From Rhodospirillaceae bacterium (GTDB taxonomy: Bacteria; Pseudomonadota; Alphaproteobacteria; GCA-2731375): a stretch of 43,132 nucleotides of DNA. The translations under genes were made by a program, and so were the position numbers. Positions 5,820-7,784 of the stretch are shown here, piece after piece (positions within the stretch are counted from its first letter, which is position 1; every line of letters starts with the position of its first letter). The notes under the pieces were generated by a model. The model was not told the DNA's origin and did no database searches. It saw only the letters and a program-made list of their open reading frames with translations. The stretch spans positions 1-43,132 of the forward strand of contig JABJKS010000093.1 of NCBI GenBank assembly GCA_018660265.1, read 5' to 3'.

Positions 5820-6881
5820 TCAGCTGCCCTGCTTCCGCCTTTCGACCACCGCTTCGGCCAGGCCTTCCAGCACTTGAACTGAAGTATCCCAGTCGATGCA
5901 GCCGTCCGTAATGCTCTGCCCATAGGTCAGGGGTTGCCCTTCAATCAAGTCCTGCCGTCCGGCGACAAGATGGCTTTCGATCATTACGCCGACGATACGA
6001 CCCTCTCCACCTGCGATTTGCCGGGCCACATCCGCCATAACCTTTGGCTGATTTTCCGGGTCCTTGGCGCTGTTGGCATGGCTGGCATCGATGATCAGCG
6101 CCTCTGCCTGGCCGGCAGTCCGGGCCACGTCGCAGGCGGCTTCAACGCTTACGGCATCAAAGTTCGGGGTTTTGCCGCCGCGCAGAATGACGTGGCAGTC
6201 CGGGTTGCCAAGGGTGGCGGCGATGGCAGAACGCCCGTCTTTCGTGACGGCCAGAAAATGATGCGGTTGGGAGGCCGAGGCCACGGCATCCACGGCGATT
6301 TTCACGTCCCCATTGGTGCCATTCTTGAAACCCACGGGGCAGGAGGTGCCGGATGCCAGTTCCCGGTGCACCTGGCTTTCCGTGGTGCGCGCGCCAATGG
6401 CGGCCCAGGACACTAAGTCCGAGATATATTGCGGAATGGTCATGTCCAGATGTTCACAACCCGCAGGCAGCCCTAGGTTATTGATATCCAACAACAGTTT
6501 CCGGGCCAGGCGTAATCCGCGCTCAATCTCGAAACTGCCGTCCAGGTTCGGATCGTTGATCAAACCCTTCCAGCCCACCGTGGTACGCGGCTTGGCGAAG
6601 TAAACCCGCATGACGATTTCCAATTGATCGCCCAGTCGGTCGCGTAGTTCGGCCAAGCGCGCCGCGTAATCCATCGCAGCCTCCGGGTCGTGGATCGAAC
6701 AGGGACCGATCACCACCAACAGGCGGTCGTCCCGGCGATGCACGATATCCTGCACCGCCTGGCGCGCCTGGGTCACGGTGCCGGCCGCCGTCTGTGTCGC
6801 GGGGTAGGCGCGAATGATCTCGCCCGGTGTATTCAGTTCCGTCATGTCCCTGATACGGACATCGTCATTTGTTTCCAGCAT
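5820..6881 (-). CDS. aroG: 3-deoxy-7-phosphoheptulonate (DAHP) synthase, class I
   Basis: This enzyme condenses phosphoenolpyruvate with erythrose 4-phosphate, the entry to the shikimate pathway. The 353-residue protein carries the class I alpha motifs VVIGPCSIHDPEAAMDYA, MRVYFAKPRTTVGWKG, HFLAVTKDGRSAIAATLGN, HVILRGGKTPNFD and IDASHANSAKD. AGGGAG about 10 bases before ATG 6881 supports the start. The gene stands behind a leader peptide and terminator (6935-7074) that indicate control by Tyr and Phe supply. Class I enzymes are also usually inhibited by an aromatic amino acid. I cannot decide between AroF, AroG and AroH type sensitivity, so the symbol denotes the function only. Confidence 0.94.
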   Translation of the reverse strand: MLETNDDVRIRDMTELNTPGEIIRAYPATQTAAGTVTQARQAVQDIVHRRDDRLLVVIGPCSIHDPEAAMDYAARLAELRDRLGDQLEIVMRVYFAKPRTTVGWKGLINDPNLDGSFEIERGLRLARKLLLDINNLGLPAGCEHLDMTIPQYISDLVSWAAIGARTTESQVHRELASGTSCPVGFKNGTNGDVKIAVDAVASASQPHHFLAVTKDGRSAIAATLGNPDCHVILRGGKTPNFDAVSVEAACDVARTAGQAEALIIDASHANSAKDPENQPKVMADVARQIAGGEGRIVGVMIESHLVAGRQDLIEGQPLTYGQSITDGCIDWDTSVQVLEGLAEAVVERRKQGS

Positions 6882-6934
6882 CGCGCGTAGCTCCCTGTTT
6901 TCTTCCTGGAACCAACGTCATTCAAGGACGGCAC

Positions 6935-6960
6935 AAAAAAACCGCCATGGTCTGGCGGTT
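6935..6960 (-). terminator. Attenuator terminator in the aroG leader
   Basis: On the minus strand AACCGCCA (6960-6953) pairs with TGGCGGTT (6947-6940) around a 5-base loop and runs into seven T residues (6941-6935). It lies after the leader-peptide stop and before aroG. Its left arm, CCGCCAG (6958-6952), can pair instead with CTGGCGG at 7020-7014, which would form the antiterminator. That upstream arm can in turn pair with GCCGCCA at 7062-7056 inside the leader frame. Confidence 0.9.
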
Positions 6961-6987
6961 GGTTTTGAGTTGTTATGTGATCAAGCC

Positions 6988-7074
6988 TTAGATCAAACGT
7001 ACCCCTACTCCCGCCGCCAGTGGCATCGGATAGCTAAAATAGTAAAAGAAATATGTGGCGGCAGTTGCGTTCAT
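6988..7074 (-). CDS. Tyr/Phe-rich leader peptide of the aroG attenuator (28 residues)
   Basis: ATG 7074-7072 opens a 28-codon frame ending at TAA 6990-6988. Codons 8-15 read Y-F-F-Y-Y-F-S-Y, seven aromatic codons out of eight, a composition expected only for a regulatory leader. Arm 1 (7062-7056) covers codons 5-7, just ahead of this run. Arm 2 (7020-7014) lies in codons 19-21. The stop lies between arm 2 and arm 3 (6958-6952). A ribosome stalled on the Tyr/Phe codons would cover arm 1 and let 2 pair with 3 (read-through). A ribosome reaching the stop would shield arm 2 and let the 3:4 terminator form. This matches the trp/phe attenuation logic known from enterobacteria. Confidence 0.85.
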   Translation of the reverse strand: MNATAATYFFYYFSYPMPLAAGVGVRLI

Positions 7075-7081
7075 GACTGAG

Positions 7082-7110
7082 CGTATATATCAGCTAATTC
7101 GATTTGTCAC
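7082..7110 (-). promoter_or_regulatory. Probable promoter of the aroG leader transcript
   Basis: On the minus strand GTGACA (7110-7105) resembles a -35 box. TATATA (7089-7084) or TATACG (7087-7082) follows as a -10 at 15 or 17 bases. The leader ATG is only 7-9 bases after the -10, and no Shine-Dalgarno sequence is seen. Transcription may therefore start at or within a few bases of the AUG (leaderless translation). Confidence 0.5.
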
Positions 7111-7157
7111 GGCGTTTTCCGGGCGTCGTCACATCTGAGCGCATAAAAGGGCGTGAA

Positions 7158-7784
7158 TTAGAGGAGATCGTGGACCCGGCGGTAGAGGTTCATCAGCATG
7201 CCTGCGGTGGCACCCCAGATGTAGAATTCGCCGTAGGGCATGGCGTAGTATTGCCGGGCGCGGCCGTTTAATTCGCGGCTGTGGCGCTGATGGTTTTTTG
7301 GATCGAACAAAAATTCCAGGGGCACTTCAAATACTTCCGCCACCTCGAAGTCATCCACATTCAGTTCAAACCCCAGGCGCACAAAGCCCACCACCGGGGT
7401 GACGTGAAAGCCGGTGCCGGTTTCGTAATCGTCCAGATAGCCGACGGTTTCGATGTAGGAACGGTTCAGGCCGATTTCCTCCTCCGTCTCGCGCAGGGCT
7501 GTGTCGATCACGTCCAGGTCATCCTCTTCCACCCGGCCGCCGGGGAAGCTGACTTGACCCGCATGATGATGCAGATGGTCCGTGCGCTTGGTCAATAACA
7601 CTGTCAGGCCGCTGTTATGCTCGACCAGGGGGACCAAAACAGCAGCGGGCTTCAGGCGTTCGGCGGGATCAATCCAATCCTGCATGAACGGGTTCAGGTC
7701 ATGATCGCCCGTGCTGGGCCGCAAATCATCATGGGCACGGGAATCCGCCATGGGAAGAAGTTTGGATACAATTCGATCGCGCAA
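7158..7784 (-). CDS. Nudix hydrolase, CoA pyrophosphatase (NudL-like)
   Basis: This 208-residue protein has LLTKRTDHLHHHAGQVSFPG (about residues 63-82) followed by the Nudix box GGRVEEDDLDVIDTALRE and TEEEIGL. That combination marks the YeaB/NudL group, which cleaves coenzyme A or related diphosphates with a divalent metal. The start is a TTG at 7784, favoured by AAGGAG 6 bases upstream. The first ATG, at 7751, has no ribosome site. It follows the DUF1285 gene by 33 bases on the same strand, a common alphaproteobacterial pair. I do not see the CCA-adding tRNA nucleotidyltransferase gene that in my memory often follows. Confidence 0.88.
   Translation of the reverse strand: MRDRIVSKLLPMADSRAHDDLRPSTGDHDLNPFMQDWIDPAERLKPAAVLVPLVEHNSGLTVLLTKRTDHLHHHAGQVSFPGGRVEEDDLDVIDTALRETEEEIGLNRSYIETVGYLDDYETGTGFHVTPVVGFVRLGFELNVDDFEVAEVFEVPLEFLFDPKNHQRHSRELNGRARQYYAMPYGEFYIWGATAGMLMNLYRRVHDLL

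Follow-up and report, generated by a model that had tools for sequence, protein, structure and literature searches.

Aromatic amino acid synthesis is gated by DAHP synthase, whose textbook control in enteric bacteria is repression by TyrR and TrpR together with feedback inhibition. The locus described here raises the question of whether the aroG gene of an alphaproteobacterium is under ribosome-mediated transcription attenuation by an aromatic leader peptide. Based on the window (the whole stretch of DNA analysed, 43,132 nucleotides) and on its relatives, we consider this reading very probable, at roughly nine chances in ten. On the minus strand of the window, a nudix hydrolase gene is followed by promoter-like elements, the leader ORF, a terminator and aroG:

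7784-7158, minus strand: nudix hydrolase gene, with its 3′ end 83 nt upstream of the leader.
7105..7110, minus strand: -35-like element GTGACA, with a 17-nt spacer to the -10; a GAC-type -35 recurs among relatives.
7082..7087, minus strand: -10-like element TATACG, 7 nt upstream of the leader ATG.
6988..7074, minus strand: leader ORF of 28 codons plus stop, MNATAATYFFYYFSYPMPLAAGVGVRLI; the predicted +1 is the A of the ATG (7074).
7030..7053, minus strand: control codons 8-15, Y F F Y Y F S Y, as read from the sequence.
7056..7064, minus strand: segment 1, CTGCCGCCA, with nine pairs to 7019-7011 in the leader fold.
7011..7020, minus strand: segment 2, CTGGCGGCGG, which could partner segment 1 via 7019-7011 or segment 3 via 7020-7014 (CTGGCGG).
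6990-6988, minus strand: leader stop codon, between segments 2 and 3.
6952..6958, minus strand: segment 3, CCGCCAG, overlapping the terminator arm 6960-6953.
6940..6947, minus strand: segment 4, TGGCGGTT, the 3′ arm of the terminator (terminator scan; covariation in the family).
6935..6941, minus strand: run of seven T closing the intrinsic terminator (sequence and terminator scan).
5820..6881, minus strand: aroG, the presumed regulated gene, encoding a class I (AroG/F/H type) DAHP synthase of 353 aa (TIGR00034, PF00793).

The coordinates given in a preliminary description of this region for the leader, its codons 8-15 (YFFYYFSY), the segments and the seven T residues check out, as does its placement of the stop codon between segments 2 and 3; the segment 1 of that description (7062-7056, GCCGCCA) lies inside the one listed here. 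The T run is separated by 53 nt from aroG, whose protein scores 521.9 bits against TIGR00034 (cut-off 173.2) and also matches PF00793, its best NCBIfam model being AroG at 541.7 bits, under that model's own cut-off of 568. The genome of the window holds a single match to the AroG protein. On both strands of the 43-kb window, the leader is the sole ORF of 8-60 aa with at least six (and also with at least seven) F/Y/W residues per eight codons. A terminator scan of 6850-7250 gave two sites (both strands, one repeat) against a shuffle mean of 0.3, and recovered the hairpin 6940-6960 with eight pairs. The fold of 6930-7110 alone is unexceptional (z -1.16, 24 of 200 shuffles being as good), and the case therefore stands on layout and conservation. 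The features used for it (leader, segments, terminator, linkage to aroG, conservation, covariation of 3:4, the preference of 1:2 for its own partner and promoter-like elements at a constant position) are read from the sequence.

For the comparison, aroG loci were taken from 61 neighbourhood genomes, 13 of which have the gene (the window's included), and 80 more from named genomes; after eight duplicates were dropped, 85 distinct loci were left, the window among them. At 83 of the 85, an aromatic run lies in a short ORF and a CCGCC...GGCGG terminator comes after it, stem and T run having been a requirement of the search itself. One of the two misses ends at a contig edge (L018), and in its genome (G007) the leader is found on a different contig; at the other (L090), no leader with terminator was found. 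According to the record titles, the loci include Devosia, Kaistia, Labrys, Bradyrhizobium, Achromobacter, Bordetella, Pigmentiphaga, Lautropia, Massilia, Duganella, Xanthomonas, Stenotrophomonas, Dyella and Rhodanobacter. The aromatic-codon frame conserved at these 83 loci supports the earlier reading of the region as an attenuator. Moreover, the predicted aroG attenuator recurs in many alpha-, beta- and gammaproteobacteria and is not peculiar to alphaproteobacteria. In a quick tree of AroG (112 of 122 loci, those with a usable protein), most alphaproteobacterial rows lie to one side of the midpoint and five to the other; neither horizontal transfer nor vertical descent is claimed on this basis. 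The 80 loci of named genomes are the best AroG matches among those listed and do not form a random sample, so the distribution was tested separately, as given further below.

From these features we infer where transcription starts, that the leader is translated, that ribosomes stall in it and that this affects aroG; the steps would combine as follows. RNA polymerase would start at or near the leader AUG, and the first ribosome would probably load on a leaderless 5′ end. When charged tRNA-Tyr or tRNA-Phe is scarce (in many relatives, tRNA-Trp too), this ribosome would stall in the aromatic run, just past segment 1, covering segment 1 and freeing segment 2, which would pair with segment 3 ahead of the synthesis of segment 4, so that the terminator would be held off and aroG transcribed. 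When aromatics are plentiful, the ribosome would run on to the stop codon, which lies past segment 2 and before segment 3, 1:2 would re-form behind it, 3:4 would then form, and transcription would end in the T run, about 140 nt from the start. In the E. coli trp leader, the ribosome at the stop codon covers segment 2. The aroG leader would differ in this detail, because with the stop codon past segment 2 the ribosome there would leave that segment uncovered behind it, and termination would come about through the re-forming of 1:2 and not through covering.

The start site proposed in this mechanism was approached through an alignment of the 60 nt that precede the leader ATG; it covers 46 of the 47 non-redundant loci, the remaining one (L075) starting at a contig end. 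A TA step is found at -14 to -12 in 43 of the 46 loci, the other 3-nt bins holding 0-5 except those that overlap the element, and a GAC-type -35 is found at -37 to -34 in 31 of the 46 (other bins, 0-3). The -10-like element ends 6-8 nt before the ATG in most loci, and this nearness suggests that the leader mRNA is probably leaderless, with its +1 at or close to the AUG. A simple search for Shine-Dalgarno-like words (AGGA, GGAG, GAGG, AAGG) gave none in the 46 loci. With a -10 weight matrix run over the same 60 nt, the best site falls 6-9 nt before the ATG in 21 of the 46 loci (shuffle mean 3.7, maximum 10); since the matrix slips between overlapping TATA-like hexamers, the plain positional count was added.

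The alternative that survives best concerns this start only: the attenuator would be as described, with a conventional 5′ UTR, and the -10-like element at the ATG would not be the promoter in use. A strict promoter scan of 6850-7250 finds no promoter in the window, which would fit such an arrangement, and three loci lack the TA at -14 to -12. Two of them, from Massilia and Duganella (L066, L067), have TATAGT 24-26 nt upstream of the ATG, and their attenuators probably carry a short 5′ UTR and offer a natural comparison for those predicted to be leaderless; in the third (L062), an ATG three bases earlier would restore the usual -10 distance. Also, the leaders L163-L166 of family f216 (MSAKFYFYFF..., MTAKFYFYFF...) show no promoter-like element at the leaderless position; theirs, if any, would lie further upstream, and their start mode may be different. 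At that same position, leaders of family f193 have TACATT-type elements. Nonetheless, the TA step of the 43 loci, the -35 at a fitting distance in 31 and the lack of any Shine-Dalgarno-like word in all 46 argue against a conventional 5′ UTR, and a leaderless attenuator has a precedent in Sinorhizobium meliloti trpL (rnTrpL), whose leader mRNA starts at the AUG according to passages of two sources (PMC7298713, PMC10117765). As described there, this is an alphaproteobacterial system, ribosome-mediated and leaderless as the aroG attenuator would be, although it senses Trp only and controls trpE(G). We therefore regard a conventional 5′ UTR as unlikely for the family at large, and retain the probable leaderless start.

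Regarding what the leader would sense, Phe and Tyr codons occur in all 47 non-redundant runs and Trp codons in 30 of them, Trp being absent from the run of the window; the Tyr/Phe character given to the leader in the preliminary description holds for the window itself, and most relatives add Trp. The aromatic windows of the 47 leaders contain 141 Phe, 121 Tyr and 30 Trp codons and not one TAA, TAG or TGA, with a mean of 6.2 F/Y/W per eight codons in frame versus 1.9 in each other frame, a comparison in which the in-frame count is favoured because the 8-codon window was picked in frame. In 26 of the 47 leaders, the aromatic codons begin at codon 8. Past the aromatic run, what is kept is the RNA of the predicted segment 2 rather than the peptide tail, the CTGGCGG word being read in three frames: CTG-GCG-G in most leaders, C-TGG-CGG in L028 and GCT-GGC-GGA in L031. 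The leader stop codon lies at a median of 27 nt upstream of segment 3 and 23 nt past the GGCGG of segment 2. In TnaC, a peptide-ribosome arrest detects a free aromatic amino acid, and an arrest of this kind, instead of slow decoding, could be the sensor of an otherwise real attenuation at aroG, for which the similar C-terminal PLAE-G-R of many leaders might speak. However, this C-terminal peptide shifts in frame or sequence in some leaders in which segment 2 is kept as RNA, and the run varies among F, Y and W, as sensing by tRNA would predict. Thus an arrest peptide appears very unlikely, and slow decoding by a ribosome short of charged tRNA is the sensor that we favour.

The pairings 1:2, 2:3 and 3:4 on which this sensor would act are present as predicted, mutually exclusive helices, 1:2 being conserved as an outer helix only. 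In the 3:4 terminator, 92.8% of the cells of the alignment are paired and three pairs are changed on both sides; there are 22 double-change cells, 18 of them at one pair (G-C vs A-U), a level reached by 0 of 500 shuffles, and slid-control alignments give 0-2. The 2:3 core has 92.7% of cells paired and is nearly invariant; it shows no double change, which is complementarity without covariation. For 1:2 the alignment was too loose, and a partner-swap test was used, where each sequence's own partner is compared with the partners of the other 46 in 5000 permutations. The outer (distal) helix of 1:2, formed by the ORF start with the 17 nt after GGCGG, has -13.0 kcal/mol with its own partner and -11.4 kcal/mol with swapped ones (0 of 5000 permutations; stronger in 36 of the 47 sequences), whereas for the core pairing of 1:2 it is the swapped partners that give the stronger helix (4998 of 5000). 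The 1:2 of the preliminary description exists in the window, but it is not the pairing of the family, a place taken by the outer helix. In the same test, 2:3 gave 11 (whole), 1 (core) and 65 (distal) of 5000 and 3:4 gave 0 of 5000, the controls being 195 for segment 1 with distal 3, 104 for segment 1 with 4, and 4817 for distal 2 with 4. These permutations take no account of relatedness between the sequences, and the two mildly low controls (195 and 104) show that relatedness alone shifts the swap test somewhat. Altered outer helices are found in Bordetella (L025, GCGTCCC/GGGACGC), in Pigmentiphaga (L077, CGCTTCC/GGAAGCG), in L062 (GCGACC/GGTCGC) and in L031 (GCAACC/GGTTGC); in L031, L062, L064 and L082, the outer-helix stretch also pairs with the part of the leader that precedes segment 3, as the switch requires. 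Compensatory change, which had been suggested as a check on the three stems, is therefore seen as covariation in 3:4 and as a preference for the own partner in the outer helix of 1:2, the 2:3 core being nearly invariant.

Simulated stalls, in which the assumed footprint of the ribosome is masked, were also folded. In the window, a ribosome at codons 10-15 makes the antiterminator the best fold, and one at codons 8, 9 or 16 leaves the terminator. In the other six of the seven sequences simulated, the complete transcript folds as terminator at every stall tried; for the RNA of those six up to segment 3, with the stall at codons 10-13, the best fold has about -20 to -28 kcal/mol. Static folding was therefore not taken as evidence that the switch works, being uninformative in six of seven cases, the finished transcript preferring the terminator whatever is masked. 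Since the finished RNA favours the terminator, antitermination would need the order of synthesis, with 2:3 formed before segment 4. That the terminator wins these static folds even under a stall could instead point to a switch acting on translation or through Rho-dependent termination and not at the intrinsic terminator. Nevertheless, stem and T run are there in 83 of 85 loci (as the search demanded), the stem covaries, and the AroG match begins 38-146 nt beyond the end of the leader match, so far that masking of the aroG ribosome site by the hairpin is unlikely; we consider such a switch highly improbable and keep to control at the intrinsic terminator.

A further step, which we regard as possible but rather doubtful, is that all these leaders form one old family of leaderless pan-aromatic attenuators in Alpha-, Beta- and Gammaproteobacteria, each a one-shot sensor of total aromatic supply. 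If this was true, the AUG start would be part of the device, and a mixed run of Phe, Tyr and often Trp would gate the entry of the shikimate pathway. The idea of one ribosome per transcript comes from the outer 1:2 helix, which, when it takes in the start codon, would allow no second ribosome to load. The start codon is paired in the forced 1:2 duplex of 26 of the 47 leaders and in the best whole-leader fold of 11 of the 47, and the one-shot reading is given lower odds because of this last count.

The distribution was tested with R1, a covariance model made from the 47 non-redundant leaders with the terminator stem as the only structure given. Among 385 alphaproteobacterial genomes, 69 have some R1 match at E 1e-3, of which 14 have a strong, full-length match (48.9 to 132.6 bits). 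The matches of the remaining 55 reach at most 33.2 bits (E 1e-3 to 7.6e-6), many spanning only the 3′ part of the model; these 55 genomes were all left uncounted, two of them (G202, G215) being inspected, and the cut between 48.9 and 33.2 bits was set after the score list was known. A search of the same 385 genomes with the AroG protein (E 1e-60) gave 14 genomes, identical to the 14 with a strong R1 match, at least four of which (G000, G005, G010, G043) were rows of the model. The leader is directly upstream of aroG on the same strand in 13 of the 14, leader and gene being on different contigs in G007. Another reading is that the hairpin is just the terminator of the nudix gene, a same-strand neighbour whose end is 83 nt from the leader, and that the aromatic ORF is a chance product of a U-rich tract, such tracts yielding TTT codons. 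This is scarcely credible: 83 of 85 loci retain leader plus terminator in front of aroG, 151 of the 292 F/Y/W codons in 47 runs are Tyr or Trp, with no in-frame stop, and the strong R1 matches adjoin aroG.

Across 398 genomes of the phylum, 55 have an R1 match at E 1e-5, and 48 of these matches sit 38-146 nt upstream of an AroG match. The seven others comprise three before pheS, three before pheA and a partial one without a fitting leader (G485). The three pheS-linked matches (G542, G711, G732) share one leader sequence, and the gene downstream was assigned by TIGR00468 in G542 and G711 and by a near-identical downstream protein start in G732; the pheA-linked ones are in G746, G724 and G585. 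According to a passage of PMC11802643, pheA and pheST are attenuated in E. coli, so these six matches serve as unplanned positive controls. The gammaproteobacterial pheA and pheST attenuators follow the same logic with Phe-rich leaders, six of which R1 recovers, although they precede other genes and their runs are mainly Phe. Five named genomes (Achromobacter, Xanthomonas, Dyella, Massilia, Labrys) have one R1 match each at E 1e-6.

The association of the leader is confined to part of the AroG family. In the phylum set, it is present at 37 of the 39 AroG matches with at least 64% identity (exceptions, G685 and G714) and in 11 further genomes whose AroG has 59-60% identity. An AroG/F/H-type gene occurs in 225 of the 398 genomes, and 48 have an R1 match beside it, most being without a match. 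Inspection of 11 stretches upstream of AroG-type genes lacking an R1 match revealed no aromatic leader with terminator in any of the 11; five of them have weak ORFs in which four of eight residues are aromatic, but no T run follows these ORFs. The large R1 searches scored eight candidates per genome under strict filters, which makes their absences soft; in G599, a leader is found by eye (L234) and yet there is no R1 match at E 1e-5, and the phylum counts are thus lower bounds.

With respect to known systems, the leader families of Rfam include Phe, Trp, His, Leu and Thr leaders. No match at gathering level was found in the window or in 16 loci, and for 6880-7130 at E up to 5 only RNAI appeared, at 16.6 bits against 47. 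The main text of the survey by Naville and Gautheret does not mention aroG, aroF or DAHP. In Corynebacterium glutamicum, the aroR leader before aroF was reportedly described by Neshat et al. in 2014. Passages of PMC11802643 and PMC4046766 present aroR as a Phe-Tyr-Phe leader that attenuates the DAHP synthase gene aroF and that answers Phe limitation, not Tyr limitation. By this description, aroR resembles the proposed aroG attenuator as a peptide with Phe/Tyr codons in transcription attenuation of a DAHP synthase, whereas it has only Phe-Tyr-Phe and belongs to an actinobacterium. The remark in the preliminary description that such control of a class I DAHP synthase is not a textbook case hence needs this aroR-aroF system as a qualifier (PMC11802643 and PMC4046766, in the passages just mentioned). 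A second comparable system, uORFC-13-1 before Acholeplasma aroF, appears in passages of PMC8632094 as a predicted motif with 24 examples, from Acholeplasma and environmental sequences only; it is similarly a uORF with at least one Phe codon and a terminator before a DAHP synthase gene, but has a ribosome-binding site. The same passages cite an earlier attenuation hypothesis for E. coli aroF. Also, Table 7 of PMC1173090 lists putative attenuators before aroA(I-alpha-Y)-tyrA in Vibrio parahaemolyticus and V. vulnificus, which are likewise predicted before a class I-alpha DAHP synthase gene; these are, however, structure-based web-database entries in a tyrA operon, with no leader described in the passages of that source. 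Among the open-access matches listed, in their titles, abstract starts and passages, no leader-peptide attenuator before a proteobacterial aroG is described. Attenuation of DAHP synthase by a leader peptide is thus already known in kind, and the aroG leader family itself is new and widespread, its particular traits being a predicted mixed aromatic sensing and a probable leaderless start.

With a conserved aroG attenuator in Bradyrhizobium, Devosia, Burkholderiales and xanthomonads, many Proteobacteria would control the gate via charged tRNAs, and this control would often read several kinds of tRNA at once. Moreover, the aroG leaders would offer a natural set of variants in which to study the coupling of a leaderless leader to RNA polymerase.

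Three side observations concern other genes. The genome of the window also encodes a class II DAHP synthase (G000:C119:48312-49631, PF01474, 701 bits); the window leader is the only R1 match in this genome, and the class I and class II enzymes would seemingly be under different control. Two of the pheA-linked leaders (L195 in G746, L196 in G724) are Phe leaders before pheA genes encoding 667 and 650 aa, where DAHP synthase models of the B. subtilis type match behind the prephenate dehydratase part, so that these PheA proteins are apparently a fusion of entry and branch enzyme. Finally, one of the inspected weak matches (L203, G215:C1, about 1459600-1459000, minus strand) is an alphaproteobacterial leader, MIHAANYYYWFISSHTGGAQGFV, with a GC hairpin and no T run, which adjoins a 109-aa ORF weakly like the C-terminal domain of tyrosyl-tRNA synthetase (PF22421, E 0.0025, below the cut-off), and is possibly another aromatic leader.
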